Source: a virus
DNA: 39,302 nucleotides
IMG/VR virus record: IMGVR_UViG_3300038701_002551
Span: 1 to 39,302 of that record
Reading direction: 5' to 3' (one strand)
Shown here: in pieces, positions 3,750 through 27,270 of the stretch
Numbering within the stretch: position 1 is the stretch's first letter
Layout of the letters: each line of letters begins with the position of its first letter
Notes under the pieces: model-generated
Database searches by the model: none
Told to the model about the DNA's origin: nothing
What the model saw: the letters and a program-made list of their open reading frames with translations, nothing else
Translations under genes and position numbers: made by a program

Positions 3750-3769
3750 TTCCTGAATATTAGGAAAAG
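3750..3769. promoter_or_regulatory. 20-bp element TTCCTGAATATTAGGAAAAG, copy 1
   Basis: Near-palindromic element (TTCCT...AGGAA) upstream of the tail sheath gene. It matches the site at 18797-18816 in 19 of 20 bases. A -7 box starts 45 bases after its first base. It is probably a binding site for a phage regulator; the antisense RHH protein at 18567-18761 is the best candidate. Confidence 0.6.
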
Positions 3770-3794
3770 AATTTTTCAATTTGAAACAACTACA

Positions 3795-3802
3795 TATTTT
3801 TG
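3795..3802 (+). promoter_or_regulatory. promoter -7 box for the tail operon
   Basis: TATTTTTG fits the Bacteroidota TAnnTTTG -7 consensus. The expected -33 position (about 3771-3775) is T-rich but is not a clean TTTG. An untranslated leader of about 40 bases, containing a small inverted repeat (TTAGT...ACTAA), leads to the sheath start at 3851. This is the only sizeable gap between the terminase and the tail genes. Confidence 0.5.
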
Positions 3803-3850
3803 TTACCCTAAGAAGGCTATAAAAATTAGTCATAAACTAAAATTAAAGAT

Positions 3851-5368
3851 ATGGCAGCAGTTCCATCAGAATTTGTTTCAAAAGTAGTTGGTTACCAATT
3901 AACAGCGGGTGATTTTTCCGAAACAACCCCAAATTTACCACAAAGAGTTTTAATAGTTGCAGAAGCTAACGAAGCAAACCAAGGCACAATGCCAACTGGT
4001 TTAACACAAATCACATCAGATAAACAAGCTGGTGAATTATACGGTTACGGTTCGCCAATTGAATCTATGGCGCGTATTTTTTACCCAAATTCTGGTTCTG
4101 GTATTGGTGGTATTCCTGTATTTGTAGCGGTTCAAGATGAACCAGCTGGTGCAGCAGTTTTTTCAACAGATATTTCAGTTACTGGTACGGCAACAGGAAA
4201 CGCAACACATAAATTAATTATTAATGGTCGTAATATTATTGATGGTGAAAGATACGATGTAAATATATTAAAAGATGATACAGCAATTATTATTGCTGAT
4301 AAAATACGTGATGCAGTAAACGGTGTATTAAGGTCACCACTTGAAGGTTCAACAACAGGTGGTTCAGATGTTTCATTAAAATCAAAATGGGCTGGTTTAA
4401 CAGCAAATGATATTACAGTAGAAATTGATGATCAAAGTAATGCAGCCGGTATTTCTTATTCAGCCGCAATTACAAGTGCTGGTGCCGGTTCACCAACAGT
4501 TACTTCAGCATTGAATTTAATGGGTAATGAATGGTTTACAATCGTTTGTTCTGGTTATGGTATGAATACTGATATAATTGATGAATTAGAAGCGTTCAAC
4601 GGAAAACCAGACCCAAACAATCCAACAGGTAGATATTCAGGAATTGTTTTTAAACCTTTTATTGGTTTATGTGGTTCAACTGCTGATAATGAATCCGCAT
4701 TAACAGATTTAAGAAAAACAGAAGTAACGCTTGCTGTTTGTAGTGCCCCATTGTCAAAAGGTATGCAATATGAAGCGGCTGCAAATTATGCCGTACTTTA
4801 CGCAAGGCAAGCACAGGAACGCCCAGAAGCAGATATTTCAGGTTATTATTTACCAGATATGCCGGTTCCAGAAGATTGTAATATTGGAACGATGAAAGAT
4901 TACATTAATCGTGATCTTTATGTTAAAAAAGGCTGTACAACTGTTGAATGTGTTTCTGATCAGTATAAAATCGCTGATTTTGTTACAACATATCACCCGG
5001 ACGGTGAAGCTGTGCCATCATATAGGTATGTTAGAAGCTTGACACAAGATTTTAATATTAAATTTGGTTTATCATTACTTGAAGAACAATATGTTGTTGA
5101 TAATGTAATTGCTGAAGATGATCAGCCGGTTCGTGTTGATGGTGTAATTAAACCGAAATCATGGAAGGGTATTTTATATACTTATGCTGATGATTTAAGT
5201 TTAAAAGCAATCATTACAGAACCATCATTTATGAAAGATTCAATTCAGGTACAAATATCAACATCAAACCCTGAAAGACTTGATACATTTTTTAGATACA
5301 AACGTTCAGGATATGCCAGAATTTCAAGCACAGTTGCAGAAGCTGGTTTTAATTTCGGTGAATTATAA
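3851..5368 (+). CDS. contractile tail sheath protein (Mu gpL-like)
   Basis: 505 residues, normal for Mu-type sheaths. The N-terminus (residues 1-90) contains QRVLIVAEAN, TQITSDKQAGELYGYGSPI and MARIFY, the pattern seen in Mu gpL-like sheath proteins. A variable middle domain follows (about 95-215). The conserved C-terminal part includes PDMPVPEDCNIGTMKDYI, YRYVRSLTQDFNIKFGL and the final ISSTVAEAGFNFGEL. Sheath subunits form the contractile tube around the tail tube. The gene starts the tail operon and is followed 27 bases later by the tube gene, the classical order in contractile phages. Confidence 0.92.
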   Translation: MAAVPSEFVSKVVGYQLTAGDFSETTPNLPQRVLIVAEANEANQGTMPTGLTQITSDKQAGELYGYGSPIESMARIFYPNSGSGIGGIPVFVAVQDEPAGAAVFSTDISVTGTATGNATHKLIINGRNIIDGERYDVNILKDDTAIIIADKIRDAVNGVLRSPLEGSTTGGSDVSLKSKWAGLTANDITVEIDDQSNAAGISYSAAITSAGAGSPTVTSALNLMGNEWFTIVCSGYGMNTDIIDELEAFNGKPDPNNPTGRYSGIVFKPFIGLCGSTADNESALTDLRKTEVTLAVCSAPLSKGMQYEAAANYAVLYARQAQERPEADISGYYLPDMPVPEDCNIGTMKDYINRDLYVKKGCTTVECVSDQYKIADFVTTYHPDGEAVPSYRYVRSLTQDFNIKFGLSLLEEQYVVDNVIAEDDQPVRVDGVIKPKSWKGILYTYADDLSLKAIITEPSFMKDSIQVQISTSNPERLDTFFRYKRSGYARISSTVAEAGFNFGEL

Positions 5369-5395
5369 AATTAAAAAATACTTAAAAAAGATATT

Positions 5396-5803
5396 ATGGC
5401 AGTTCATGGTGATATAAAAGAAATTACATTTAACCACCCAACGGTTGGTTCTGGAACACTTTTCCCAAAAGCAAATGAATCAAATACTTTAGATACCGGA
5501 GGTTATAGAACAAATGATGATGCAAATCAAATTGTTTCTGATGGTTCATTAATCCTTCAGAAAAACAGAACCCGGGCATTTTTTGAAGCAATGGTTGAAA
5601 ATGACAATAATTTGCGTGAAGATATGCGAAAAGTTGTTGAAATCACTGAAAGCCCTTTATTGGCAGAATGGACAATTTCACTTATTGGTGGTGCAATTTA
5701 TAAAGGTTCTGGTCAACCGGTTGGTGATCTTCAAACAGATTTAAACACTGGTATGTTCACTTTAAAGGTTGCATGCGATAGAATAGAAAAAATTAGTGGA
5801 TAA
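5396..5803 (+). CDS. tail tube protein (Mu gpM-like)
   Basis: 135 residues, in the size range of Mu gpM-type tube proteins. The sequence is largely beta-type and ends in VGDLQTDLNTGMFTLKVACDRIEK, where tube proteins commonly have a conserved final strand pair. Tube subunits stack as hexamers inside the sheath and carry the DNA. Its position directly after the sheath gene and before the frameshifted chaperone gene strongly supports the role. Confidence 0.82.
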   Translation: MAVHGDIKEITFNHPTVGSGTLFPKANESNTLDTGGYRTNDDANQIVSDGSLILQKNRTRAFFEAMVENDNNLREDMRKVVEITESPLLAEWTISLIGGAIYKGSGQPVGDLQTDLNTGMFTLKVACDRIEKISG

Positions 5804-5823
5804 ACAATTATAAATTATATTTT

Positions 5824-6255
5824 ATGGAACAAAACAAAACAAACACTGCAAGCGGCGGTGTTGTAACGCCTGAACAAGCTGATAATGAATTAACAGCATG
5901 GCTTGATGAAAAGAGGGTAAAACCAAGAAAAAGAAAAGAATCATCAGATACAATTGAAACATTAATTGAAGCAATTGAAGATGGTGATATTACTTTTGAT
6001 GAAAAAGGTGATTTAATACAAATTTTATCTGATCCGGCTGGTGAAGGTTCTTTAAAAGTTGAAAAACTAAAGTACAAAACCAGAATTACTTTAAAAGAAG
6101 TACGGGTTCGATTGAAAAACGTTAAATCAAATGATATTGATGGTCGTGTTGTTGCTTATATTTCAGCAGCAACAGGTGAAAATTCAGCTGTAATTGATGA
6201 ACTATCAACAACAGATTGGAGTTTATCACAATCAATCGCGGTTTTTTTTATGTAA
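5824..6255 (+). CDS. tail assembly chaperone, short (unshifted) product
   Basis: 143 residues. Acidic, mostly helical N-terminal part with a central region (about 60-100) resembling phage tail assembly protein E-type chaperones. It lies between tube and tape measure, the universal place for tail assembly chaperones, which wrap the tape measure before tube polymerisation. The frame ends in GTT TTT TTT ATG TAA, so the stop comes right after a poly-T slippery tract. The short product is analogous to lambda gpG. Confidence 0.8.
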   Translation: MEQNKTNTASGGVVTPEQADNELTAWLDEKRVKPRKRKESSDTIETLIEAIEDGDITFDEKGDLIQILSDPAGEGSLKVEKLKYKTRITLKEVRVRLKNVKSNDIDGRVVAYISAATGENSAVIDELSTTDWSLSQSIAVFFM

Positions 6256-6428
6256 CTGAAGAAGATGCATTAAATAATATTATCTTGTCTTTGTATCACA
6301 CTTTCAAGATGAAACCATTAGAGGTTGAACAATTCTTTCTTGATGAAAAGGATGCGTTCAGCCTTTTTTTTTGGTATAATGAAGCTGAAGAAATGACAAA
6401 GAAAGCAAACAAAAAGAAAAGTAAATAA
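5824..6428 (+). CDS. tail assembly chaperone, -1 frameshift fusion product
   Basis: A -1 slip on the T-run would join the first 142 codons to a 59-residue extension read from 6249 to 6428 (YVTEEDALNNIILSLYHTF...), giving about 201 residues. The extension has a conserved-looking motif KMKPLEVEQFFLDEKDAFSLFFWYN and a lysine-rich end, and stops 8 bases before the tape measure gene. An independent start for this frame exists at 6216, but it is buried in the upstream gene with no leader, so the fusion (lambda gpGT logic) is more likely. Confidence 0.72.
6242..6249 (+). other. programmed -1 frameshift slippery site
   Basis: A run of eight T follows a G; in frame it reads GTT TTT TTT ATG TAA. The heptamer T TTT TTT fits the X XXY YYZ rule and allows both tRNAs to re-pair after a -1 slip. 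The zero-frame stop two codons later and the open -1 frame downstream fit a tail chaperone recoding site. I did not identify a convincing downstream pseudoknot. Confidence 0.72.
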
Positions 6429-6436
6429 AATATTCA

Positions 6437-8611
6437 ATGGCAAAGCAATTTACAATACCAACGGTATTTTCAGCAATAGATAAATTTACTGGACCCGTTC
6501 AGAAAATGGAAAAATCTGTTTCGAGAATGGCAAAAGGTACTGATGCTGCTTTTGATAGAATGGACCGTAAATTTAGAAGAACGGCGGGCCAAATGAATAA
6601 AGTCGGTTCAAAAATGATGGTTGCCGGCGGTTTAATTGCCGCACCTTTGGCTTTGGGTGTTCGTGAAGCAATTAAATTTGAAGAAAAAATGGCCAATGTA
6701 TCAACATTGATTGATACAAATACAGAATCACTTGAAGATATGGGTGATAAGGTGTTGAAAATGGCAACAAAATTACCCGTTCCAATTGAAGAATTAACCA
6801 CAAGTTTATATGATATACGTTCAGCCGGTATTGCTGCAAATGATCAATTTTCTGTATTAGAAGCCACAACAAAACTTTCAGTTGCTGGTTTATCTTCAGT
6901 TTCAGAAGCAACAAATCTTACAACATCAGCAATAAATGCTTTTGCATCTGAAGGATTAACAGCAAATGAAATTACTAATATGCTGTTTAAAACGGTTAAA
7001 TTTGGTAAAACAACAGTTGCAGAATTATCACAAGCTTTTGGATCAGTTGCCCCGATTATACAAAGTTCATCAACTACATTAAAAGAATTTCAGGCCGCAA
7101 CCGCCGCATTAACAACAACTGGTACACCAGCAGCACAGGCACAAAATCAATTAAAAGCAGCAGTTATTGCATTGCAAAAGCCAACAAAAGATATGCAAGC
7201 TGTATTTAAAAAATTAGGTGTTACAACAGAAAAAGAATTAATTAAAAAGTTTGGCGGTTTGGTACCAGCAATGCAAGCTGTAAACAAAACCACAAATGAA
7301 CTTGGTATAAATAACGCAAAGGCTTGGAGTAGTACAGAAGCACTTGCATCAGTTACATCATTAACCGGTGCAACTTATGAATCATATCAGCAGACATTGA
7401 AAGCAATGACAAATGGCGTTGATGATCTTGGTATTGCATTTGATAAGCAATCAAAAACGGGTAAAGCCCAGATGCAAGTTTTAAAAAATCAAGTACAAGT
7501 TCTTGGTATTCAAATCGGCCAAGCATTATTACCTGTTTTATTGGAATTAATGAAAACGGTGGGGCCAATGGTTCAAAGTTTTTCAAAATGGGTTAAAAAT
7601 AACAAAGTTTTATTTGCTTCAATTGTAAAAGTTGTTGCAGTTGTTGGTTCACTTTCATTTGGCCTTGGTGGTTTATTAAAAATTGCAGCCCCTTTTGTTC
7701 GTATAATGCCAAAAATGGCAAAAGGTTTTTCAGTTTTTTCAAAAACAAAAATCGGTGCAAAAGGTGTTGGATTATTAGCAAAAGGTTTGAAGATGTTACC
7801 GGGGCCAATTGGTTTAGCTGTTGCCGGTGTTGGTGCATTAGCAACTGTATTATTTACACTTGGTAAATCTGAAAAAAATGTTTTTGATAAAACAAAAGCA
7901 CTATCAGAGATTCAAAGCCGGGCTTATCAAAATAGTGCAAAACAACGTGTTGAAGTAACAAAACTTTTCATGCAATTGAGGGCATTAAACCCTGAATCTG
8001 AAAAGTATCATCAAGTTCTTCAACAAATTGATGCAATGCAACCCGGATTAATTGAAAAATACAATCTTCAAGCTGGTGCATTAAAAAATATTAATGCAGC
8101 AGAAAAGGAACTGATGAAAAACATCATGGCCCGAGCAAAAGCCCAAGCAGTTGAAGATTTATATACTGAAAGTTTAACGGCTGTACTTGATCTTGAAACC
8201 CGTAAAAAAATGGGTGAAGATGTTGATTCAGATGAATTATTACTACAAAAGAAAAAATTATCAGAATTTTCAACCCAATTTGGAATTCAGCAAGGATTAA
8301 CAGAAAACCAAGCAAGGCTTGAATCTTTACGCCAAGGTGTTGAATTAACAAAAGAATTTCAAGACCCTGCAACAGTAATACAAAGTGAAAAGAAATATGA
8401 TCAAAATGGATTGCCAGTTTATGATGTGCAAAATCCAACATCAAGTATGAACCAGAATTTAAATCAAAATTTAGAAGTTGATATTAAATTTGATGCAAGC
8501 GGTTTACCTGTAATAAATGCAACATCATCTGGTGATGCAACAATAAAAACAAATGTATCAAGTACGGCTGGCGTAAATAGTATTTTGGATGATATTAATA
8601 ATATGAAATAA
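6437..8611 (+). CDS. tail tape measure protein (TP901 core family)
   Basis: 724 residues. The N-terminus starts with a helical region (FSAIDKFTGPVQKMEKSVSR). The TP901-type core at about 60-340 includes GLIAAPLALGVREAIKFEEKM, LPVPIEELTTSLYDIRSAG and QAFGSVAPIIQSS. Two hydrophobic segments lie at about 390-420 and 450-475. Helical and coiled-coil sequence follows, and the C-terminus is low-complexity, rich in N, S and T. The protein sets tail length and helps DNA entry. A length of 724 residues predicts a rather short tail, roughly 100 nm by the usual 1.5 angstrom per residue rule. Confidence 0.93.
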   Translation: MAKQFTIPTVFSAIDKFTGPVQKMEKSVSRMAKGTDAAFDRMDRKFRRTAGQMNKVGSKMMVAGGLIAAPLALGVREAIKFEEKMANVSTLIDTNTESLEDMGDKVLKMATKLPVPIEELTTSLYDIRSAGIAANDQFSVLEATTKLSVAGLSSVSEATNLTTSAINAFASEGLTANEITNMLFKTVKFGKTTVAELSQAFGSVAPIIQSSSTTLKEFQAATAALTTTGTPAAQAQNQLKAAVIALQKPTKDMQAVFKKLGVTTEKELIKKFGGLVPAMQAVNKTTNELGINNAKAWSSTEALASVTSLTGATYESYQQTLKAMTNGVDDLGIAFDKQSKTGKAQMQVLKNQVQVLGIQIGQALLPVLLELMKTVGPMVQSFSKWVKNNKVLFASIVKVVAVVGSLSFGLGGLLKIAAPFVRIMPKMAKGFSVFSKTKIGAKGVGLLAKGLKMLPGPIGLAVAGVGALATVLFTLGKSEKNVFDKTKALSEIQSRAYQNSAKQRVEVTKLFMQLRALNPESEKYHQVLQQIDAMQPGLIEKYNLQAGALKNINAAEKELMKNIMARAKAQAVEDLYTESLTAVLDLETRKKMGEDVDSDELLLQKKKLSEFSTQFGIQQGLTENQARLESLRQGVELTKEFQDPATVIQSEKKYDQNGLPVYDVQNPTSSMNQNLNQNLEVDIKFDASGLPVINATSSGDATIKTNVSSTAGVNSILDDINNMK

Positions 8612-8614
8612 AAA

Positions 8615-9145
8615 ATGGCTGATTTATACATATATGAAACTTATGATGGCGGTGATTCGGTCCTTGTCGGAAATGATTTAAAAATGACGAATGGCCTTCA
8701 TAATTTCCCATATTTCGGTTTGTTTGGCGGTAATCCAGAACAAAACACAAAACAAAACCGCCAAACTGGTGAAATTGCCCTTGATTGGTGGGGTAATTCA
8801 TTGCTTGAACCAATAACCCCTTTAAACTGGATCAATTCCAGATTAGAAAAAACCCTTGAAACGATTGCATTAACTTCAGCAAACAGATTTAATTTAATTA
8901 ATACTGTAAAATCAGATTTAAAATTTTTAAAAGAATTTGTTACAATTGAAGTTGATGTTAGATATACAGGGGTTGATGAAGTTTTAATTCAAATAAAACT
9001 GATTGAACCAGAAACATTAACAGAAAATATTTATATTTTTATATGGAATTCCACAGAGCAAGAATTAAAATCTGAATTTATTATTCCAGATGATCAATCA
9101 GGCACAGGAATTGCATTAAACACAATTTTAAATTTTCCATTATGA
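8615..9145 (+). CDS. baseplate wedge-type protein (Mu gp46-like)
   Basis: 176 residues. It shows the gp46-family pattern: a glycine-rich start (DGGDSVLVGNDLKM), the motif GEIALDWWGNSL (about 52-63), SRLEKTLETIALTSANRFNLINTVKSDL in the middle and a beta-rich end. In Mu-like phages gp46 is a small baseplate wedge component preceding the gp47 baseplate J protein. Here two extra genes separate it from the gp47-like gene. It starts 3 bases after the tape measure stop. Confidence 0.72.
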   Translation: MADLYIYETYDGGDSVLVGNDLKMTNGLHNFPYFGLFGGNPEQNTKQNRQTGEIALDWWGNSLLEPITPLNWINSRLEKTLETIALTSANRFNLINTVKSDLKFLKEFVTIEVDVRYTGVDEVLIQIKLIEPETLTENIYIFIWNSTEQELKSEFIIPDDQSGTGIALNTILNFPL

Positions 9146-9756
9146 GCATAATTACTTGGGATGATAAAGAAAAGGTAAGGAATACAGACGGCATACCTAG
9201 AAAACAGCAAATTACAGCTGAAGATATTAATGATATGAAGGGTGCAATAAATAATTTATGGGATAATTCATATCCGGCATCAATTTCAGAATCAACAACA
9301 TTAACCGTTGAAGATTCTGGTCAGGTTTTTATAACAGATATTAACGGCACGTTACTACAAAATGATTCAGCAAATATTATTGATTCAACAAAAAACGGTG
9401 TTCAATCTGGATTTGGTAATTATGATGTATCTGGTTCATTTTTTGATATTTCAGCAATTACAAAACCATGCCAAATTTTTATTAATCATTCTTTTACACC
9501 AGCTGGTAATGCAGATAGTGGTGTTGCGTATGCGTTTTTTAGTGATAAATCAAATATACCATCATCATTTGTTAAGGTAGAACAAAACGGTTTTAATAGA
9601 ACTAGAAATTCATTTGATAATGGGGGTACTAAAATGATACATTATGATCCAAATGTTCAGCCATTGGAAGCGATACAGATTTACGCATTATCACAAGCAA
9701 CAGAATCTGTTACTTTAAAATATTTCACAATATTTATTAATACTTTAAAACAATGA
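9142..9756 (+). CDS. putative virion/baseplate-associated protein
   Basis: 204 residues, not recognised. The start overlaps the previous stop by 4 bases (ATGA), and the stop overlaps the next start in the same way. The N-terminal 35 residues (ITAEDINDMKGAINNLWDNS) look like a short helical attachment segment. The rest is predominantly beta-strand (ISESTTLTVEDSGQVFI, FINHSFTPAGNADSGVAYAFF), resembling a capping or receptor-binding domain of tail-associated proteins. Its position inside the baseplate operon suggests a structural role; the exact function is unknown. Confidence 0.6.
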   Translation: MSIITWDDKEKVRNTDGIPRKQQITAEDINDMKGAINNLWDNSYPASISESTTLTVEDSGQVFITDINGTLLQNDSANIIDSTKNGVQSGFGNYDVSGSFFDISAITKPCQIFINHSFTPAGNADSGVAYAFFSDKSNIPSSFVKVEQNGFNRTRNSFDNGGTKMIHYDPNVQPLEAIQIYALSQATESVTLKYFTIFINTLKQ

Positions 9757-10313
9757 TACAGGAATTCAATATTACAACTGAAATTGATATGATTCTTCTT
9801 TTTGAGGAATTAAAATCATTAAGTTTTTATGCCTTATTCGATAAAGATCGTAAATTTAAAACTAAAGCTGATAAAATTACTATTTTTTTTACTGAAGATT
9901 TAAATCAAGATCAACAAGATGAACTTTTTTTATTAATACAGAATCATCAAGTAAATTATCTTGATCACGAAAAACAGAAAATGCACATTGAAATTGACGC
10001 AAGAACAGCAGAATTAATTTCAAATGGTTATATTTACAAAGAAAAAGCATTTTCATTATCACCAAACGCCCAGACTAATATATTAGCATTGTATTCAACA
10101 AAGGATGAACCGGAAATGATTTATCCAATAAGATATAATACAATTGATGATACAGATTCTTATGATTTGGTTGATGCTGCTGATGTAAAAGGGATGTATT
10201 TAACAGCTTTAGCATTTAAAAAAGGCTTTATTGATAGTGGTACAGCTTTAAAAGATTCAGTTAGGGCAGCAAGTACACCTGAAGAATTAACGGCAATTAA
10301 AGACAATAGATAA
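9753..10313 (+). CDS. DUF4376-like tail-associated protein
   Basis: 186 residues. The C-terminal part (about 88-186) reads ARTAELISNGYIYKEKAFSLS..AQTN..AL, then YPIRYNTIDDTDSYDLVDAADVKGMYLTA and a final RAASTPEELTAIKDNR. This resembles DUF4376-type modules found at the ends of phage tail fibre and tail assembly proteins. The N-terminal 85 residues are a separate alpha/beta unit. It is translationally coupled to both neighbours (4-base overlap upstream, 1-base TAATG overlap downstream). A tail fibre connector or assembly role is plausible. Confidence 0.6.
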   Translation: MIQEFNITTEIDMILLFEELKSLSFYALFDKDRKFKTKADKITIFFTEDLNQDQQDELFLLIQNHQVNYLDHEKQKMHIEIDARTAELISNGYIYKEKAFSLSPNAQTNILALYSTKDEPEMIYPIRYNTIDDTDSYDLVDAADVKGMYLTALAFKKGFIDSGTALKDSVRAASTPEELTAIKDNR

Positions 10314-11473
10314 TGATTGAAATTCCAACAACGCAAGAACTTTATGTTCAAATTAAATCAGAATTAGAAACTGAATTTAATATTACAATACCAGATGTTG
10401 GGCCTAATTATCTAAGGACACAAGCACAAGTTCTTGCAGCTGAATTACGCCTTTATTATCTTTATGCTGGAAAAGTACAGAAAAATATTTTTGCTGATAC
10501 TGCTGATCCTGAATCAATGGGTGGTACTTTAGAGCGTTTCGGGCGTGTAAAATTGGGCCGTGATCCATTCAAAGCAACAGCGGGTAAATATTTATGTGTT
10601 GTAACTGGTGATGCTGGTGCAGTTATTCCAGCAAATACAGTATTTAAATCAGATGATGATACACAAAGCCCAAATAAATTATATGTTTTAGATTCTGCAT
10701 ATACAATGCCGGGTGTCAGTGGTCAAATTTTATTACGCGCTTTAGAATCTGGACTTGATTCACAATTATCTGTTTCAGATACACTTTCATCAACTGCACC
10801 AATACCGCAAGTTGATACCACAGCAACAGTTCAATCAGAAGATACAGAACCAATTGCAGCAGAATCAGTTGAAGAATACCGTGAAAAGGTAATTGAAGCA
10901 TTTAGACTTGAACCACAAGGTGGGGCACAAGCTGATTATGTTTTATGGTCGAATGAAGTACAAGGTGTTGCCGAAAGTTACCCATACACAAGCGGCGGTA
11001 ATACAAATGAAGTTGATTTATACATTGAAGCAACAGAAATTGATTCAACAGATGGAAAAGGTACACCATCTGCACAGTTAATTACAGATGTTCAATCATC
11101 AATTGAGGACCCAACACCAGAACGCCCATCAAGAAAACCAATTTCAACAATAGTTAATTATTTACCAATAACCCCGCTTGATATTATTATTACAATTTCA
11201 AATTATATTGATTTAACACCAGCAAAAGAAACATTAATACAAAATGCGTTGAAAAATTATTTTTCAGAAATACGGCCTTTTTTATCTGGTGTTGATGTTG
11301 TAGGTGAAAAGATTGATACAGTAACATTAAATAATATTTCATCTGTTGTTTTGGATGCAGTGCCGGGTTCAATATTTGATACGCCACAACTTGATGTTGA
11401 TGGTAATATTGTACCATCTTATCAGTTTGAAGATGGTGATATTCCATTTTTAAATCCTATTATTTATATTTAA
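10313..11473 (+). CDS. baseplate J-like protein (Mu gp47 / XkdT-type)
   Basis: 386 residues. It carries the hallmarks of baseplate J proteins: an N-terminal helix pair with LRTQAQVLAAELRLYYLYAG and the phrase ADPESMGGTLERFGRVKLG. The domain AGAVIPANTVFKSDDD follows, then SVEEYREKVIEAFRLEPQGG and a C-terminal LTPAKETLIQNALKNYFSEIRP..GVDVV. These proteins form the wedge that links the hub to the fibres and triggers sheath contraction. It is followed without a gap (TAATG) by the gp48-like gene, as in Mu. Confidence 0.9.
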   Translation: MIEIPTTQELYVQIKSELETEFNITIPDVGPNYLRTQAQVLAAELRLYYLYAGKVQKNIFADTADPESMGGTLERFGRVKLGRDPFKATAGKYLCVVTGDAGAVIPANTVFKSDDDTQSPNKLYVLDSAYTMPGVSGQILLRALESGLDSQLSVSDTLSSTAPIPQVDTTATVQSEDTEPIAAESVEEYREKVIEAFRLEPQGGAQADYVLWSNEVQGVAESYPYTSGGNTNEVDLYIEATEIDSTDGKGTPSAQLITDVQSSIEDPTPERPSRKPISTIVNYLPITPLDIIITISNYIDLTPAKETLIQNALKNYFSEIRPFLSGVDVVGEKIDTVTLNNISSVVLDAVPGSIFDTPQLDVDGNIVPSYQFEDGDIPFLNPIIYI

Positions 11474-12183
11474 TGAGTACGAAAAATAAAATAATTAAAT
11501 TAACTAAACAGTTATTCCCAGAAGGCCGCGCATTAAGGATTGTTAAAGATGGAAATAATGAAAAGCGTGAAACAGCCCTTGCAGAAATTAAATCACAGGG
11601 TGTTGATTCAGCATATAGTATTTTATATTCGATCCTTCCAGATAATGATTTTTTTACAGAAGATGATGCCACAAAATGGGAACGCCGATTAGGCATGATA
11701 GTACAAAATTCATCTGTACCTTTAGCTGATAGAAAAGCCGCAATTTTAAGAAAATACAATCACCCGGGAACAATTTTAGCCCGGCAATCATACGATTATT
11801 TACAGGATCAATTAAATTTGGCCGGTTTTACAAATGTTGTAATTTATGAAAATATACCCCGTTTACCGCCTTCATTTTATTGTGGTATTCAAGCAACCGG
11901 TATTGCTGAACTTGGTGGTGATTGCCAATTTTCACCATTAATTGAACATGGTCAAATTGATAATGGTTCTGTTTTCGGTAATATGATTGCAAATCATATT
12001 GATGAAATAAAAGATTATTATTTTGATATAGGTGATAATCTAAGTGCATTATTTTATGTTTCAGGAACACCAAATGGAACTTTTATTGATATTTCAGCAA
12101 GTAGAAAAGAAGAATTCAGACAATTAATAATGAAATTAAAACCAGCAAATACAGTTGGTGTTTTATTTGTAAATTACGTTTAA
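11473..12183 (+). CDS. baseplate protein, Mu gp48 / YmfQ (DUF2313)-like
   Basis: 236 residues. It contains ILPDNDFFTEDDATKWERRLGM (about 54-75) followed by LADRKAAILRKYNHPG, the conserved segment of the YmfQ/gp48 family. An asparagine- and glycine-rich region and a beta-rich C-terminus (about 130-236) follow; the latter may contact fibres. Immediate coupling to the baseplate J gene matches the Mu gp47-gp48 order. Confidence 0.8.
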   Translation: MSTKNKIIKLTKQLFPEGRALRIVKDGNNEKRETALAEIKSQGVDSAYSILYSILPDNDFFTEDDATKWERRLGMIVQNSSVPLADRKAAILRKYNHPGTILARQSYDYLQDQLNLAGFTNVVIYENIPRLPPSFYCGIQATGIAELGGDCQFSPLIEHGQIDNGSVFGNMIANHIDEIKDYYFDIGDNLSALFYVSGTPNGTFIDISASRKEEFRQLIMKLKPANTVGVLFVNYV

Positions 12184-12195
12184 AAAAAAAAAGAT

Positions 12196-12816
12196 ATGGC
12201 AAGAAGTATTACACAATTGCAAAACACTATACCACCGGGGCCAAATTACCAATATGGTGATATTAGAGATAGAGCCGGTGCAACATCTGGTACGCCGGTT
12301 GATCGTGAAGGGTTTGCAGATCAATTTCAATTCTGGAATCGTTTAATGGATGTTGTAGATATACCATTCAATGGCTTACCAGATAATGATGCACCTTTTC
12401 CACTTGGTGATGGCCGGCAATTTTCAGAAGCTGTTGCAAAATATGTTGACAATAATTATCGTGAATTAATTTTAAAATTATCACAAACCGGAACAAGTAA
12501 CCCCGGTTATGTTCAAGTAAAAAATAATATTTTAGATCCTTTAGGTAATCCAATGATACCTGTACCAGTAAGAACAAACCCCGGTTTATATTACTTAGAA
12601 TTTGACCCCGTAATTGGTAAAGATTATATGCTTATTGTTTCACAGGGCACATTGTCAGATACCACAAATGACATTGTAATGACTGCAAAATTGGCAGAAG
12701 GTGATTTAATAAGAATAAATACAACATTATCTGGGCTTGCATCAGATGGGGTTCTTGATCATGTAATTATTTTGCGTGAAGTAGATACACAATATTATGG
12801 TTTAGGTGATTATTAA
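12196..12816 (+). CDS. putative tail fibre or fibre-adaptor protein
   Basis: 206 residues. The N-terminus contains GATSGTPVDREGFADQFQFWNRLMDVVDIPFNGLPDN, then FSEAVAKYVDNNYRELI. The C-terminal half is beta-rich. The glycine-, proline- and asparagine-rich N-terminus and the position after the gp48-like gene, where Mu encodes its fibre, suggest an adaptor or short tail fibre. It is much shorter than a typical fibre and has no recognisable repeats, so the role is tentative. An A-rich leader precedes the start. Confidence 0.55.
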   Translation: MARSITQLQNTIPPGPNYQYGDIRDRAGATSGTPVDREGFADQFQFWNRLMDVVDIPFNGLPDNDAPFPLGDGRQFSEAVAKYVDNNYRELILKLSQTGTSNPGYVQVKNNILDPLGNPMIPVPVRTNPGLYYLEFDPVIGKDYMLIVSQGTLSDTTNDIVMTAKLAEGDLIRINTTLSGLASDGVLDHVIILREVDTQYYGLGDY

Positions 12817-12825
12817 AAAAATAAT

Positions 12826-13560
12826 ATGGCAGTTCTTGATGTAAATACTGATGCTTTGGTTTCATTCACAAATACCCTTGAAAAACTATCTGAAAACGAC
12901 GTTCCAAGGGTTGTTGCTAAAACATTAAATTCTGCTGCATTAGATGTGAAGCAAAAAACAATGCCAGCTTCAGCCAGAAGAACTTTCACCAATAGATCAA
13001 AAAACTTTTTTAAATCACATTCACAAGTTGAATTTGCAAAAAGAAGTTCAAATATCAATAATATAAAATCAACTGTTGGTTTTACTGATAAGAAGATTCC
13101 AACCAGCCAAAATAAATTTGCAGTAAAAGAACTTGAACAACAAGAATACGGGGGATCAATTAAAAAGCGGTCCTTTATTCCTTTAAATCGTTCACGTGTT
13201 GGCGGTTCTTATAATAGAAATGTTGCCAAACGTAACAGATTAGGTAATATTAAATTTGTGAAAGCCAGACAAGCACAAGGGGTAAATGAAGGGCAAAGAT
13301 TTATTAAATCTGTTATGCACGCGGGCCGCGGTGGTCATGTTTTGAGTGAAAAAGGTATTTTATTCAGGGTGAATTCTGTTAGAAGAACAAAAGGCGGTGC
13401 ATTAAAATTAACGGCTTTATATAGTTTCAAGAAAAGCCGTACAGTGCGGGTTCATAACACTAATTTTATGCGGTATGCATCAGAAAGATCATCTGAAAAG
13501 CTTGATGATCTTTTTATAAAAGAAGCAAAAAAACAAATCGAATTTAGAACAATTTCATAA
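12826..13560 (+). CDS. putative tail completion / minor tail protein
   Basis: 244 residues, basic. The N-terminal part reads VSFTNTLEKLSENDVPRVVAKTLNSAALDVKQKTMPASARRTF. This resembles minor tail protein Z / gp10-like neck proteins, which begin with a helix ending in an ALN..A motif. A beta-rich middle and a C-terminal helix (RYASERSSEKLDDLFIKEAKKQI) follow. Its position before the gpN-like gene is not the usual neck position, so a structural tail role is more certain than the family. It overlaps the next start by one base. Confidence 0.45.
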   Translation: MAVLDVNTDALVSFTNTLEKLSENDVPRVVAKTLNSAALDVKQKTMPASARRTFTNRSKNFFKSHSQVEFAKRSSNINNIKSTVGFTDKKIPTSQNKFAVKELEQQEYGGSIKKRSFIPLNRSRVGGSYNRNVAKRNRLGNIKFVKARQAQGVNEGQRFIKSVMHAGRGGHVLSEKGILFRVNSVRRTKGGALKLTALYSFKKSRTVRVHNTNFMRYASERSSEKLDDLFIKEAKKQIEFRTIS

Positions 13561-14786
13561 TGAGTTGGGTAGAAAAAGTACAAAATCAGATTAGTATTCA
13601 AACCGGTGATGGTAAAGTATATCAACCGCTTTATTCATTTTATACAAAAAGCATTGAATTTAATTTTACTGAATGGAATTTTCCAAATATTACAGGTTCT
13701 AAAGTTGACCGATATTTAAGAAAAGGTAACAGATTTGATATGAATATTATATTTCAGGGTGATGATCATCTTGATTTGGCTGCTGAATTTTTAGATAGTG
13801 CGGAAAATATAAATCCTTGGGTATTAAGACACCCTTTTTATGATGATTTTACAGTTCAGCCAACAAATCTAAGCCATGATACAAGCGGTTTAAATACATC
13901 TGTTATTACAGGCCAGCTAATAGAAACATTAACTGAAGATTTCCCACAATCAAAAGATCAACCGCAAGGTGAAGCAGATGATTACGGTGCAGATCATTCA
14001 GATGCATCAGATGCGATTTTTGCAGAATCAGATTTTGCATCAGCTGATCAGCAATTATTGGAACAAAATTTAAATGAAACATTTGATGATGTAAAAGATA
14101 AAATTACAATTCAAGAAGCCCTTGATGAATATTTCAATTATTTTAATGAAGCATCAAATGCAGTAATAAATGCAACTTCAGCCCCGCTTGAAGCGATTCA
14201 AACCGCAAGAAATGTTTATACATATCCGGCGTTATTGGCCCAATCTGTAAAACAAAGAATGGGAATGTTGATAAATCAATTTCAAACGGTTGTATCAGAG
14301 GTTGTTAATTTAGTAACACCAAATGAAAAAAAGATTGTTGAAAATAATGCTGGTTTAACCATTCAGGCAATGTTTATTGCTGCAATAAATCCTTTAAATG
14401 ATACAGATTATGAAAATGTAAATGATGTTTTTGATATTCAAGATTTACTTGTGAATACTTTTAACCAGTATATTCAAATAATTGATAGTTTGCAAACTGA
14501 TACAAATGATGAACCAGATTCATATTTGCCAGATTTTGAATCAATAAAAGCACTTGTTGGTGGTGTAACTTTTGTTGTTGCTAATTTAGCACAAGTAGCA
14601 CTTCAGGCCCAGCAACAAAGAATTGTTACATTGAAAAAAGATACTAATGTGATTGAACTTACACATAGATTTTACGGCCTTGATCCAGAAGATTTAAACC
14701 TTGATAAATTTATTGCACAAAATAACATTGGATTAAATGAACTTTTAGGGCTGGAAAAAGGCAGAAGAATTGTATATTACATTTAA
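13560..14786 (+). CDS. Mu gpN-like tail/DNA circularisation protein with LysM-like end
   Basis: 408 residues. The N-terminal about 100 residues (YKGRNRFDMNI-like region, ENINPWVLRHPFYDDFTVQPTNLSHD) fit the DNA circularisation N domain of Mu gpN. An acidic linker (about 120-165) and a helical middle follow. The final 55 residues (KKDTNVIELTHRFYGLDPEDL...LLGLEKGRRIVYYI) resemble a LysM-type peptidoglycan-binding module. Mu gpN is a baseplate hub-region protein. The following two genes are gpP-like and gp45-like, reproducing the N-P-45 order of Mu. Confidence 0.8.
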   Translation: MSWVEKVQNQISIQTGDGKVYQPLYSFYTKSIEFNFTEWNFPNITGSKVDRYLRKGNRFDMNIIFQGDDHLDLAAEFLDSAENINPWVLRHPFYDDFTVQPTNLSHDTSGLNTSVITGQLIETLTEDFPQSKDQPQGEADDYGADHSDASDAIFAESDFASADQQLLEQNLNETFDDVKDKITIQEALDEYFNYFNEASNAVINATSAPLEAIQTARNVYTYPALLAQSVKQRMGMLINQFQTVVSEVVNLVTPNEKKIVENNAGLTIQAMFIAAINPLNDTDYENVNDVFDIQDLLVNTFNQYIQIIDSLQTDTNDEPDSYLPDFESIKALVGGVTFVVANLAQVALQAQQQRIVTLKKDTNVIELTHRFYGLDPEDLNLDKFIAQNNIGLNELLGLEKGRRIVYYI

Positions 14787-14788
14787 TT

Positions 14789-15880
14789 ATGGAATTAAAA
14801 ATATCAGATAGATATGACAACAGGGTGATAAAATACTTTAATGAAGTAAATGTTCAATTAAAGCATGATGCGGTTGCAAGTACATTTGCTTTTGTGTTTA
14901 ATTTTAACCCTAATAACCCGGATCATAAAGAATTATCATGTGTTTCACATTATCATGATGTTGAAATATTTCATAATGGTAAAAAACTTATTACTGGAAT
15001 TTTACTTTCACAATCATTTAAACAAAATGCAAAAGGAATTGAAACCCAGTTTTCAGGATATTCAACATCTGGCCAGCTTGAAGATTGCCAGATACCACCG
15101 AACATTTACCCATTACAATCAAATGGTTTAAGTTTAAAAAACATTGCATCAAAAATTGGAAATGCTTTTAAACCAAAAATTGGTGTAATTGTTGATGAAT
15201 TAACTGCATCATCTGCTTCAGGATCATTTAAAACTTCAGCACCAGAAGCAACAACAACATGTAAAAGCTATTTACAAAAGCTTGCAACACAAAAAGATAT
15301 TATACTTTCAAATGATCCATCTGGAAAATTACTTTTAACAAAATCAAATACCAACGGGAAGCCAATTTTAGATATTGATCTTACTGATCCGAAAAAATCA
15401 ATTCCTGTTGTTCAGGCTGAAATGCTTTTTCCGGGGCAACCGATACATTCACACATTACGGCAATGCGTCAAGCTGGTATTGATAGTAAAAATGCGGGCC
15501 AGCAAACGTTAAGAAATCCTTATGTTATCGGTTCTGTACATAGGCCAAAAGTAATTTCACAAAGTTCAGGTGATGATAATTCAACTTATGATACAGTACG
15601 GCGTGCATTAGGTGATGAAATCAGAAACATTAAAGTGAAGTTAAAATTGGATAGATGGACCATTGATAATAAATTAATTTTTCCAAATAACACAATAAGA
15701 ATACATGCACCGGGCATTTATATCTGGTACCCATCAATATTTTTTATTGAATCAGTTTCATATTTAGGAAATGAAAAACAGCAATCAACAGAATTAATTT
15801 GTACACTTCCAGAAGCATATAATGATGAAAGAAATATTGTCAATATTTTTAGAGATATAAACATTCACCCGAGGGTTTAA
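14789..15880 (+). CDS. baseplate hub protein (Mu gpP / late control D-like)
   Basis: 363 residues. It begins with a beta-barrel-like region (VNVQLKHDAVASTFAFVFN, VEIFHNGKKLITGILLS, FSGYSTSGQLEDCQIPP), then SLKNIASKIGNAFKPKIGVIV and YLQKLATQKDIILSNDPSGKLLLTK. This is the architecture of Mu gpP / T4 gp27-type hub proteins. The trimeric hub connects the tube to the spike, whose gene follows 6 bases later. The start lies 2 bases after the gpN-like stop. Confidence 0.85.
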   Translation: MELKISDRYDNRVIKYFNEVNVQLKHDAVASTFAFVFNFNPNNPDHKELSCVSHYHDVEIFHNGKKLITGILLSQSFKQNAKGIETQFSGYSTSGQLEDCQIPPNIYPLQSNGLSLKNIASKIGNAFKPKIGVIVDELTASSASGSFKTSAPEATTTCKSYLQKLATQKDIILSNDPSGKLLLTKSNTNGKPILDIDLTDPKKSIPVVQAEMLFPGQPIHSHITAMRQAGIDSKNAGQQTLRNPYVIGSVHRPKVISQSSGDDNSTYDTVRRALGDEIRNIKVKLKLDRWTIDNKLIFPNNTIRIHAPGIYIWYPSIFFIESVSYLGNEKQQSTELICTLPEAYNDERNIVNIFRDINIHPRV

Positions 15881-15886
15881 ATTAAA

Positions 15887-16411
15887 ATGAAAGTAATAAA
15901 AGTTTTATCATCAAAGGTTGGCGAAGGTGGCCGGCGTTTCATCAAGTTTTTAAGCATGGGTTCAGATGATACCCGTGAAAATGTACTTGCAGCACCTTTT
16001 GGTGATGATTCAAACCCGCCAAAAGATTTCAAAGCTATTTATACACGTACATCAGTTGATGGTGAAGATGTTGTTGTTGGTATTATTAATGAAAACGCAA
16101 TTGCGGAACCCGGCGAAAAAAGACTTTATTCAACAAATGATGATGGTGATGAACAATTTTATCTTTATTTAAGAAAAAATGGCACAATTGAAATTGGCGG
16201 TGATCAAGGTAATGCAGTGAGGTATCAAGAGTTGCAGCAGCAATTTGATGAATTAAACAATAAATTTAATGATTTGGTAACTGCATTTAATACACATCAA
16301 CATACTGGCAACATGGGGGCACCAACGGCACCATTACCCGGGTTTATTCCTTCACAACCATCAAGTGCAGATATTACACAATGTAAAATTGATGAAATAA
16401 AAACAATTTAA
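15887..16411 (+). CDS. baseplate spike protein (Mu gp45-like)
   Basis: 174 residues. It contains FGDDSNPPKDFKAIYTRTSVDGEDVVVGIIN and GEKRLYSTNDDGDEQFYLYLRKNGTIEIGG, typical of gp45/gpV spikes with an OB-fold followed by a beta-helix. NAVRYQELQQQFDELNNKF is a helical linker. The segment HQHTGNMGAPTAPLPG (about 143-158) carries the HxH pair that binds iron at spike tips in this family. The spike pierces the outer membrane on contraction. Confidence 0.88.
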   Translation: MKVIKVLSSKVGEGGRRFIKFLSMGSDDTRENVLAAPFGDDSNPPKDFKAIYTRTSVDGEDVVVGIINENAIAEPGEKRLYSTNDDGDEQFYLYLRKNGTIEIGGDQGNAVRYQELQQQFDELNNKFNDLVTAFNTHQHTGNMGAPTAPLPGFIPSQPSSADITQCKIDEIKTI

Positions 16412-16412
16412 A

Positions 16413-16619
16413 ATGGCTTTAGACCCGCAAGAATTAGCAAATGATATATTAAATGACCCTTTAATTATGGGTGATGTGCCGCCCGTGGCACAGCAAAAAA
16501 TGGTTGAAATATGGACACGTTTAAGTGTTCATATAACCGAGCAAATAAAACGGGGTATTATTGATGATGTTCAGGTTGATCAGTTCGGAAATCAACAAAA
16601 TATTTCATCTGTTAAATAA
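16413..16619 (+). CDS. small hypothetical protein
   Basis: 68 residues, not recognised. Acidic helical protein (DPQELANDILNDPLIMGDVPPVAQQKMVEIWTRLSVHITEQIKRG). The start is one base after the spike stop, so it is translated with the baseplate genes. Its size and position at the boundary between tail and head genes suggest a minor virion or assembly factor, but no motif supports a specific role. Confidence 0.6.
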   Translation: MALDPQELANDILNDPLIMGDVPPVAQQKMVEIWTRLSVHITEQIKRGIIDDVQVDQFGNQQNISSVK

Positions 16620-16640
16620 TTTTTAAGTAATTTTACAACT

Positions 16641-16946
16641 ATGAGTGATAAAATAGAATATTGCACACTTGATTTAAATCTAAGTATTTGTTCAAATGCA
16701 CGTGATGTAATCGCAAAAATTGATGCGGTAATATCTGAATTATTAGTTACTGCATTGCCTAGTGTTCAAAATGGACAATATGCAGAATATGAAATTGATA
16801 CGGGCCAAACAAAACAGAAAGTAAAATATAATGATCCATCAGAAGTTGTAAATACTATTTCTTTGTACAGGAAATTAAGAAAGCAATATGAAAATGATAT
16901 TATACCAAGGCGGGTTTCTTTGGTTGATTCAAAATCAATAAGATAA
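16641..16946 (+). CDS. head-tail joining protein, gpW-like
   Basis: 101 residues. The segment from about 30 to 95 has a helix (VIAKIDAVISELLVTALPSVQNG), a two-strand hairpin (YAEYEIDTGQTKQKVKYNDPSEV) and a second helix ending LRKQYENDIIPRR. This fits the gpW fold, and the gene lies directly before the portal gene as W lies before B in lambda. It is longer than lambda gpW (68 residues) because of an N-terminal extension. The role would be to seal DNA-filled heads before tail attachment. The stop overlaps the portal start by one base (TAATG). Confidence 0.6.
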   Translation: MSDKIEYCTLDLNLSICSNARDVIAKIDAVISELLVTALPSVQNGQYAEYEIDTGQTKQKVKYNDPSEVVNTISLYRKLRKQYENDIIPRRVSLVDSKSIR

Positions 16947-18565
16947 TGAGAAAAAATAACACATCTAGAATGATATTAATGGATGCGGCTAATAAAATAC
17001 CGTTTCCAAGTGATATAATACCAATGAATAAAATGGTATCAGATCAAAGTTCTGATGGTCCAGAAGCAAGGGCAAATTCAGTTTCTTATGGCCAAGCGTA
17101 TGTTCTTGGTTATGACGGTGAAAAGGACCGGGGCACAATGGGCACACCAATTGAATATATACCTGAATTTGAACGTTTATCAATTCGTTCTTGGCAGTCG
17201 TATTTAGAAAGTGATGTTTCACAAACAATAATAAAAAGATATGTACTTTGGGTTGTTGGTAAGGGTTTAAAATTCCAATACAACCCAATAAAACCATTAA
17301 CAGAATTTAATGAATCATTTGAAAAATCAACACGTAAAGTTGAATATATGTTTGAACTTTGGGCTGGTTCTAAAAATTCAAGCCATAATAAAGAAACTTC
17401 ATTAAATTGGCTTGGAAATGAAGCATATAAATCTGGTAAAATTGGCGGTGATGTTCTTGTTATTTTAAGATGGAAAAATAATAATCTTTCAGTTCAAAAT
17501 ATTGATGGTTCAAATGTTGGTAATCCAATGATAAAACCAACAATTACAAATGGCCATATATTAGAAAATGGTATTGAAACAAATAAAAGCGGTGAAGTTG
17601 TTGCATATTATGTAAGAACTGAACAATTAAAATATAAAAGAATTAAGGCCGTTGATCCAACAACTGGTTTGAGGGTTGCATTTATGTATTATGGTTCAAA
17701 ATTCAGAATTGATTCTGATAGGGGTTTACCAGTAATTGCAACAACATTACAATCATTAAAACAACTTGACAGGTACAAAGAAGCAACAGTTGGATCAGCT
17801 GAAGAACGGCAAAAAATCGCCTATTTCATTGAACACCATCTTGATGGTGATGGTACAAGCCCGCATGCACAAGCATTACTTGCATCATTTAATGTTGGTG
17901 CGGATTCAACAGCGCAAAATGCAACAACCCAAAACGGGGTTGAAATTGATCAAGTTGTTACAGCATCAACACAAAAACAAACTTTTAATTTATCACCCGG
18001 TTCAAAAATGAGCCAATTAGATTCAAAAAATGAAATTCATTTTTCAGAGTTTCACGGATCAGTGGCAAATATTATTTGTGCATGTGTTGGAATTCCACCG
18101 AATGTTGCATTTAGTTTATATACAGATTCTTTTTCAGCTTCAAGGGCTGCAACAAAAGATTGGGAACATACATTAAATGTTGAACGTGATGATTTTTCAT
18201 TTCAATATTATAAGCCAATTTTTGAATTTTGGCTGCACATGAATGTATTAACAAATCAATTATCATTACCGGGGTATATTGATGCGTATTTAACGCAAAA
18301 TTTATATAAACTTTCAGCGTTTAGAAATTGCCGTTTCATGGGGGCACAATTCCCGCACATAGACCCATTGAAAGAAGTTAAAGCAGAGCGCGCGAAGCTT
18401 GGACCGAAAGCAAATGATATACCACTTACAACGGTTGAAAGATCAACTGAAGCATTAAACAGTGGTGATGCGTTACAAAATATTGAAAAATTCGCTGATG
18501 AATTAGAGATTGCAGAAAAAGCCGGTATAATAACCCCGGAACCAGAACCGGGTGATGGTGAATAA
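16946..18565 (+). CDS. portal protein (lambda gpB family)
   Basis: 539 residues, usual for lambda-type portals. The sequence includes NIICACVGIPPNVAFSLYTD, FSASRAATKDWEHTLNVERDDFSFQYYKPIFEFWL and QFPHIDPLKEVKAERAKLG. These match conserved portal_2 segments: the polymerase-like 'SxxxSRA' helix, the FxxxYxPIxxxWL helix and the iDPxKExxA end. The dodecamer forms the DNA entry vertex. It is followed immediately by the antisense RHH gene, which ends two bases after the portal stop. Confidence 0.92.
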   Translation: MRKNNTSRMILMDAANKIPFPSDIIPMNKMVSDQSSDGPEARANSVSYGQAYVLGYDGEKDRGTMGTPIEYIPEFERLSIRSWQSYLESDVSQTIIKRYVLWVVGKGLKFQYNPIKPLTEFNESFEKSTRKVEYMFELWAGSKNSSHNKETSLNWLGNEAYKSGKIGGDVLVILRWKNNNLSVQNIDGSNVGNPMIKPTITNGHILENGIETNKSGEVVAYYVRTEQLKYKRIKAVDPTTGLRVAFMYYGSKFRIDSDRGLPVIATTLQSLKQLDRYKEATVGSAEERQKIAYFIEHHLDGDGTSPHAQALLASFNVGADSTAQNATTQNGVEIDQVVTASTQKQTFNLSPGSKMSQLDSKNEIHFSEFHGSVANIICACVGIPPNVAFSLYTDSFSASRAATKDWEHTLNVERDDFSFQYYKPIFEFWLHMNVLTNQLSLPGYIDAYLTQNLYKLSAFRNCRFMGAQFPHIDPLKEVKAERAKLGPKANDIPLTTVERSTEALNSGDALQNIEKFADELEIAEKAGIITPEPEPGDGE

Positions 18566-18566
18566 A

Positions 18567-18761
18567 TTACAATTCATCATCATCTGGAAAATTCGTCATA
18601 CGCATTTCAGGCGGTAATTCTGCAATATATGTGCGCAATACTGGTTTTAATAGTTGTGAAACGGTAATATCAGATTTTTTTGCAACAAATTTTATTTCAT
18701 TTTTTAAATCATCTGGTACGTGTTGAATTCTGATTTCATTGGTATAATTTGTTTTGCTCAT
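18567..18761 (-). CDS. ribbon-helix-helix regulator, antisense inside the head operon
   Basis: 64 residues. The first strand NEIRIQHVP, helix DDLKNEIKFVAKKSDIT and helix VSQLLKPVLRTYIAELP make an Arc/MetJ-type RHH DNA-binding domain, with an acidic tail (FPDDDEL). It is the only minus-strand gene in the first 26 kb, placed tail-to-tail with the portal. Its own promoter region holds two palindromes, TATTTGTACAAATA at 18775-18788 and the shared 20-bp element at 18797-18816, so autoregulation is likely. No toxin partner is adjacent, so a phage regulator is more likely than an antitoxin. Its first 16 bases are identical to those of the HTH regulator ending at 27221. Confidence 0.75.
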   Translation of the reverse strand: MSKTNYTNEIRIQHVPDDLKNEIKFVAKKSDITVSQLLKPVLRTYIAELPPEMRMTNFPDDDEL

Positions 18762-18774
18762 TTCAAAAAGTTTT

Positions 18775-18788
18775 TATTTGTACAAATA
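18775..18788. promoter_or_regulatory. perfect 14-bp palindrome over the RHH gene promoter
   Basis: TATTTGTACAAATA is its own reverse complement. It overlaps the minus-strand -7 box TATATTTG (18783-18790, read on the minus strand), so a dimeric repressor bound here would block transcription of the RHH gene. The site is 14 bases upstream of that gene's start codon. Confidence 0.5.
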
Positions 18789-18790
18789 TA
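18783..18790 (-). promoter_or_regulatory. promoter -7 box of the RHH gene
   Basis: On the minus strand this reads TATATTTG, an exact fit to TAnnTTTG. Twenty bases upstream on that strand is TTTC (18811-18814), a near match to the -33 TTTG. The shared 20-bp element lies between and over these boxes, which is a typical repressor arrangement. Confidence 0.55.
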
Positions 18791-18796
18791 AAAAAT

Positions 18797-18816
18797 TTCC
18801 TAAATATTAGGAAAAG
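18797..18816. promoter_or_regulatory. 20-bp element TTCCTAAATATTAGGAAAAG, copy 2
   Basis: It matches the element upstream of the sheath gene in 19 of 20 bases. With one base added on the left, it contains the perfect inverted repeat TTTCCTAA-ATA-TTAGGAAA (18796-18814). On the plus strand a -7-like box, TTGTTTTG, begins at 18842, again 45 bases from the element start. It lies between the divergent RHH and protease genes. Confidence 0.62.
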
Positions 18817-18853
18817 CTTTTATTAAGTTTATTAAATTTAATTGTTTTGTATA

Positions 18854-26855: not shown

Positions 26856-27040
26856 ACTTCTTGAATTTTAATTTTTAAATCAGTTATTTCATTTTTAGTT
26901 TTTTTATCAATTAAAACTTTATATTCTAAAGTTACAGTTGATAAAACATCAAAAGCATCATTACCCCACCGGGTGCAATCAGCCATTGTTTCTTTGCCGT
27001 TTTTAGTCGAGATTATCACCCTGAATTTTTTCATCTTCAA
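26852..27040 (-). CDS. small hypothetical protein upstream of GH16
   Basis: 62 residues, not recognised. A small alpha/beta protein (KKFRVIISTKNGKETMADCTRWGNDAFDVLSTVTLEYKVLIDKK). It overlaps the GH16 start by 4 bases and the HTH gene end by 38 bases in another frame, so the three minus-strand genes form one operon transcribed from the control region at about 27.24 kb. Confidence 0.6.
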   Translation of the reverse strand: MKMKKFRVIISTKNGKETMADCTRWGNDAFDVLSTVTLEYKVLIDKKTKNEITDLKIKIQEV

Positions 27041-27221: not shown

Positions 27222-27237
27222 AAATTATTTTTTAATT

Positions 27238-27257
27238 ATGATGTAAATATACATTAT
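27238..27257. promoter_or_regulatory. operator-like palindrome between divergent transcription units
   Basis: ATGATGTAAATATACATTAT, an imperfect palindrome (ATGTA....TACAT core). It matches the perfect palindrome at 33387-33406 in 18 of 20 bases. It lies between the HTH gene and the rightward promoter, over the expected -33 region of the latter, fitting a repressor site. Confidence 0.65.
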
Positions 27258-27262
27258 TTTTA

Positions 27263-27270
27263 TATATTTG
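27263..27270 (+). promoter_or_regulatory. rightward early promoter -7 box
   Basis: TATATTTG fits TAnnTTTG exactly. Transcription would start near 27276, about 18 bases before the ASCH-protein start at 27294. No clean -33 TTTG is seen, and that position is occupied by the operator-like palindrome. Confidence 0.6.

Follow-up and report, generated by a model that had tools for sequence, protein, structure and literature searches.

In the genome of a phage whose sheath, portal, protease, and capsid genes mark it as contractile-tailed, a short dyad element precedes both the tail and the head operon at one fixed distance from a predicted promoter, and one of its two copies also overlaps the promoter of a small divergent ribbon-helix-helix (RHH) gene. 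Related phages carry such paired elements at the same two places, each in a version of its own. The overall reading favoured here, with moderate confidence and on comparative sequence evidence, is that the RHH protein is an autorepressor and also controls, from a fixed position, two late promoters, which it probably activates. The window, i.e., the whole stretch of DNA that was analysed, comprises positions 1 to 39,302 of IMG/VR record IMGVR_UViG_3300038701_002551 and has a G+C content of 31%.

At its core, the element has a dyad of 17 bp, made up of two 7-bp arms around 3 central bp, which occurs in the window in two copies only. The predicted operator of the tail operon (3750..3766) reads TTCCTGAATATTAGGAA, a 7-3-7 dyad around ATA with one arm mismatch, and is placed between terL, which ends at 3742, and the tail sheath gene (3851..5368, plus strand; 46-55% identity to annotated or related sheath proteins), the first gene of the tail operon. 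The predicted operator of the head operon and the RHH gene (18797..18813) is the perfect 7-3-7 dyad TTCCTAAATATTAGGAA, again around ATA, which extends with a flanking T/A to an 8-3-8 inverted repeat (18796-18814). It is placed between the minus-strand RHH gene of 64 aa (18567..18761) and the head maturation protease gene (Clp protease family; 18854..19897, plus strand), the first of the head operon; the tail-to-portal block ends with the portal gene (Phage_portal_2; 16946..18565, plus strand). A sequence-only reading of this DNA had pointed to two 20-mers (3750-3769 and 18797-18816) that agree in 19 of 20 bases, and to -7-like boxes, TATTTTTG (3795-3802) and TTGTTTTG (18842-18849), each starting 45 bases past the element start. 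The coordinates, the single difference, and the boxes were borne out, as was the claim of only two good copies: no further match was found in the window at up to 3 mismatches, and in 100 dinucleotide shuffles of the window the mean was 0.07 matches and two were never reached. Two features had not been mentioned there, namely, the dyad symmetry and a minus-strand Bacteroidota -7 box with the exact sequence TATATTTG (18790-18783), which faces the RHH gene at 6 bp from the second dyad. Since the centre of this dyad lies 15 bp upstream of what is predicted to be the RHH gene's own -7 box, the dyad is situated inside the core promoter of that gene. Both plus-strand boxes, the predicted -7 boxes of the tail-operon and head-operon promoters, start 37 bp past the dyad centre. 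The dyad-to-box spacers of the two sites are equal at 15 of 27 positions only, so that the conserved parts are the dyad, the distance, and the box. The motif TANNTTTG is not rare in the window (54 matches vs about 80 expected); it was dropped as evidence when taken by itself, and the late -7 box counts through its fixed spacing only.

Judging by profile comparison and structure modelling, the minus-strand product is an RHH (MetJ/Arc/CopG) protein. The family profile matches the solved RHH protein ORF56 (E 3.6e-5), and the structure model (mean pLDDT 81) has helices at 17-29 and 34-48 behind an N-terminal stretch, with the strand unassigned in the lone chain. Nearly all entries in the Foldseek list for this model are RHH proteins, including the Arc repressor of phage P22, yet none has E < 0.3. 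Similarity to curated models is weak: the window protein scores 17.4 bits against Pfam RHH_5, below the cut-off of 26, and few family members match any RHH model in Pfam. Among 21 single-domain phages the mean pairwise identity is 33% for the RHH protein vs 52% for the portal and 43% for the protease, which indicates that RHH proteins diverge faster than their neighbours; the low Pfam score reflects a fast-evolving family rather than a structural failure. The RHH proteins of relatives consist of a single domain of 55-72 aa or have about 95-137 aa with mostly two domains.

Relatives were collected by a portal search, in which viral contigs supplied about 90 loci and genome bins a few, with portals 42-58% identical to the window portal. 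A search with the window RHH protein alone, which included the phage collection, found no relatives; the portal was the right bait. Portal and protease could both be placed in 84 loci, some of which are overlapping records of one phage, and the RHH-family profile found a minus-strand RHH gene between the two in 67 of them; the place of the gene is thus conserved. Where tail genes immediately precede the portal, 59 of 63 loci have the gene; where terL stands there instead, none of five has it. In cultured Flavobacterium phages (FCV-1, portal 34% identical), the gene order is different and no minus-strand gene is annotated between portal and protease. A PF00589 integrase was found in three RHH records (two from one phage) and in L137, and neither in the window nor in 12 of the 16 other records, bearing in mind that virus records may be fragments; over these records, a role as lysogeny repressor does not seem to be general. 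All counts take phages as independent once near-duplicate upstream DNA is removed, and deeper common ancestry remains in them.

When viral contigs were scanned with the window element (117 stretches), just L017 and L018 distantly matched late genes (22-24% identity), and these look like chance; the letters of the element are not common to different phages. The sequence-only reading had held that absence of the element from close relatives would refute it. The exact letters are indeed not kept, and what is kept is an own version at the same two places: the letters vary from phage to phage and the two sites of one phage share a stretch, e.g., TACTTTTCCCCATTGGTTCACAAAGATA in L184, AAAAACCTCAACATTTAGCGCATT in L164, and TTCCGTTATCAACGGAACTTTTTTT in L180, each found twice, the last being another 7-3-7 dyad. 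Protease-upstream and sheath-upstream DNA was compared in the 28 records that include the sheath gene. For every one of the 20 non-redundant RHH phages compared, the protease site matched the sheath site of the same phage above that of all others (self scores 12.5-89; cross scores with mean 9.4, sd 1.5, and max 17.5). Whole-contig searches, performed for 12 contigs with an RHH gene and for L137, located the private element at the protease and sheath sites of all 13, with one further match each in G012 and G003, at 3 mismatches. In L137, L143, L146, and others, the element ahead of the sheath is where glycosyltransferase-like minus-strand genes begin (start MKTAIIIPDRGDR or similar); by their arrangement, the sheath-side site, too, can be divergent in relatives. 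Five tandem 11-bp units (CGAGTACCTAA) stand upstream of both protease and sheath in L176 (= L175), whose two sites are identical over 90 bp; this array may represent the element in direct-repeat form, or else a duplication of recent date.

It is highly probable, on this comparative evidence, that the RHH protein is the binder of the element. That the element is instead bound by a host protein or another phage protein, with the RHH gene merely adjacent and uninvolved at the sheath site, is improbable. In favour of such a binder is L137: it has the paired element, at a spacing of 39, and an RHH gene was not found in it by profile, which means that another protein can fill the role or that the profile missed the gene. 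Such a binder would sit poorly with the elements of related phages, which are unrelated to one another and of a type that tracks the RHH beta-strand, with the overlap of the RHH promoter and the element, and with the RHH-less phages L191, in which no paired element was found upstream of protease and sheath, and L162, in which the -7 region alone is shared and no paired dyad was found. Furthermore, each contig has one RHH gene of the family, and no second was found. As for the beta-strand, an Arg in its E-x-R motif goes with a CC/GG half-site core (15/16 vs 2/9; p 5e-4, post hoc, with shared ancestry still contained in the counts). It is a guess that this Arg reads CC/GG; the dyad operators together with the agreement between strand and operator lend indirect support to an RHH dimer that would bind the dyad via its beta-sheet. 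In L277, the contig of L137, a 56-aa ORF between terL and sheath (L277:9352-9522; TERITVAVPAPKKQEY...) has a strand-like start; a Pfam scan of it gave no match, and it may, as a guess, be another ribbon-type regulator. A long dyad stands ahead of the protease in L139, where, as in L137, no RHH gene was recognised.

Paired dyads between operons might also be terminators that end the upstream blocks, or duplicated DNA from recombination between promoters; both are very improbable. Some relatives do fit: a T run follows the protease-upstream dyad (at -37) in L120, L122, L123, and L185, with a fold of -10.7 kcal/mol in L122, and L176, L185, and L190 share 57-90 bp between sites. The window hairpins, however, are weak (-5.4 and -7.7 kcal/mol, with 47 and 11 of 200 shuffles as good) and have no T run, those of L184, L164, and L150 are almost nil (0 to -2), and the window sites agree in dyad and box only and differ in the spacer. 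Nor would a terminator need a fixed distance to the next -7 box. The intrinsic terminator was thus rejected as a general account. In L120, L122, L123, and L185, operator and terminator may be one sequence.

The operator of an RHH protein, as the element is read here, keeps a strict distance to the late promoters. For the dyad test, the -7 box near the protease ATG was picked by its own letters, blind to dyads, in 44 non-redundant RHH phages. Dyad symmetry showed its sole peak 37.0 bp upstream of the box start (0.54 vs 0.31 in shuffled DNA, z 9.1) and was at background level at 36.5 and 37.5 bp. Overlaying the two elements of one phage made the -7 boxes coincide at shift 0 (mean score 5.94, other shifts ≤3.62). 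A constant distance between site and promoter, as in class-II-like activators, is thus found both across phages, as the 37.0-bp peak, and within pairs, as equal spacing. Common inheritance explains this fixed spacing poorly because the element sequences are private. Elements and spacings given for single phages were anchored by eye, which does not apply to the dyad-symmetry and pairing tests. With the dyad fitted at 37 bp, 23 of the 44 phages reach 6/8 paired positions, and the others have imperfect or no symmetry with the element still repeated; the claim of a strong dyad in every RHH phage was dropped accordingly. The averaged family core has CC at -43/-42 and GG at -32/-31 from the box start, and no TTG nearer the box stands out in the average over the 44 phages. 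At the RHH gene's own promoter, where boxes are often exact TATATTTG and often stronger than the late ones, the distance from dyad centre to -7 box is variable, mostly 15-19 bp and up to 28. At 15-19 bp, the operator lies inside the core promoter of its own gene, as in autoregulated RHH regulators, and does so in most phages. Such loose, overlapping placement suits occlusion, and it is quite probable, from this layout, that the RHH protein represses itself.

The -7 element of Flavobacterium johnsoniae spans -12 to -5, so that the start follows after 4-5 nt (PMC6847099). In this register, the dyad centre lies at about -49 and the 17 bp span about -57 to -41, and the predicted start of the window's head operon falls on or beside the protease ATG at 18854, in agreement with the earlier description of its mRNA as nearly leaderless. 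The protease mRNA is thus predicted to be leaderless or nearly so. The box ends 4-10 nt ahead of the ATG in 41 of 44 RHH phages, giving expected leaders of about 0-6 nt, and near-leaderless protease mRNA is expected to be a trait of the family and not of the window alone; in F. psychrophilum, leaderless mRNAs amount to 5.5% (PMC9723704). The -33 motif is weak in flavobacterial promoters generally (PMC6847099), so that a late promoter without a -33 box does not imply activator dependence. The -7 box of Bacteroidota sigma-A promoters, TANNTTTG, is present ahead of the protease but often degenerate over the RHH phages (T 75%, A 75%, TTT 89-98%, G 75%). The late box is an exact TATATTTG in 0 of 44 RHH phages vs 9 of 15 non-redundant loci without the RHH gene (Fisher p 4e-7), and weaker late boxes in the presence of the RHH gene are what activator-dependent late promoters would be expected to show.

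A protein bound at these sites could also be purely a repressor, keeping its own gene and the two late operons silent for as long as it has not been diluted or removed. This main rival is unlikely, and several points speak for it: repression is the mode of most known RHH regulators, a few family members have matches in PHROG families that are named for Arc-like or CopG-like repressors, and occlusion of the RHH promoter fits. SvtR of SIRV1 provides a precedent, as this RHH autorepressor also represses a viral structural gene, from a site about 80 nt upstream of the promoter, an action explained by spreading (PMC5569661). Pairing and adjacency are accounted for by repression as well as by activation, and the case against it is made solely from geometry and box strength. 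A repressor has no need for spacing exact to one bp at both promoters and across phages, and its surest target, the RHH gene's own promoter, is the one with loose spacing. Single dyads at about -57 to -41 would leave the -7 region and the start free, and phages with the RHH gene have late boxes that are weaker rather than stronger. In contrast, rigid placement near -49 at two promoters, together with weaker -7 boxes, fits a protein that touches RNA polymerase, i.e., an activator; that the RHH protein activates rather than represses the late operons is rather probable from these comparisons.

Small phage RHH proteins include Arc of phage P22, which controls immunity-region genes and not late operons, and from which the protein described here differs in operator and position. 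Phage Mu C and Mor have a fold other than RHH and work with the polymerase and promoters of E. coli. What the proposed RHH module shares with them is a phage protein just upstream of weak host-type promoters, from where C and Mor turn on late or middle genes (PMC4461284, PMC4287176). That RHH proteins can activate follows from AmrZ of Pseudomonas aeruginosa, which both activates and represses (PMC3325190), and which is, unlike the window protein, a cellular regulator with unrelated targets. Nearest in logic are SvtR and AvtR. Self-repression and a site upstream of a late structural gene, as proposed here, are shared with SvtR, which is archaeal and a repressor (PMC5569661). In Acidianus filamentous virus 6, AvtR is an autorepressor that can also act on a neighbouring viral gene, as activator or as repressor; its tandem RHH domains in one chain recur in many of the relatives, and the proposed combination of self-repression and activation is similar (PMC5569661). 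It differs in belonging to an archaeal virus and promoter machinery and in its eight potential sites with spreading over ~100 nt (PMC5569661), compared with two single dyads at fixed spacing here, and the joining of head and tail operons is not among its shown roles. In the open literature, no description of RHH late control in phages or of Bacteroidota phage late promoters was found, subscription papers being outside the scope.

In the mechanism proposed, the RHH protein that the phage itself encodes between portal and protease would have the element as its operator. On 18797-18813, the protein would cover the RHH core promoter and limit its own synthesis; bound there and at 3750-3766, with the dyad centre at about -49, it would help the host RNA polymerase to start both operons together, switching on the head operon from the protease onward jointly with the tail operon from the sheath onward. 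Transcription continuing past the end of the tail-to-portal block would traverse the RHH gene antisense, and late transcription may thereby add to its shut-off. The dedicated late-gene control site that the sequence-only reading had proposed gains support from the adjacent RHH gene and the paired elements in relatives; comparison also supports the view that an activator probably uses the site for the plus-strand operons and that the divergent RHH gene is repressed from it, with activation on the plus strand still an inference. A second divergent regulatory spot, possibly for early or replication-module control, lies at 27003-27293 of the window: the gene for an HTH protein of 72 aa (HTH_26 / transposase-type HTH) on the minus strand stands opposite a plus-strand gene that has an exact TATATTTG box at 27263. 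A family 16 glycosyl hydrolase gene (26109-26855) lies on the minus strand, with nearly all other genes on the plus strand.

Late-gene control in Bacteroidota phages has hardly been described so far, and it is very likely, from the comparisons made here, that an RHH switch times virus-particle building in a large group of these viruses. More tentatively, contractile-tailed Bacteroidota phages may, as a clade, use the RHH protein as a true late activator in place of the recognition of upstream promoter DNA by the unusual Bacteroidota sigma factor; the regulator and its two operators would then change fast and in step, and the private code would insulate each phage from co-infecting relatives. 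The family has a two-site regulon of fixed geometry, whose regulator and operator exist in more than 40 natural variants, and offers a test bed for the rules of RHH-DNA recognition, and the same variants would serve studies of the activation of the unusual Bacteroidota RNA polymerase and the design of small orthogonal switches. Lastly, the fixed geometry predicts the positions of late promoters to one bp in many uncultured phages.
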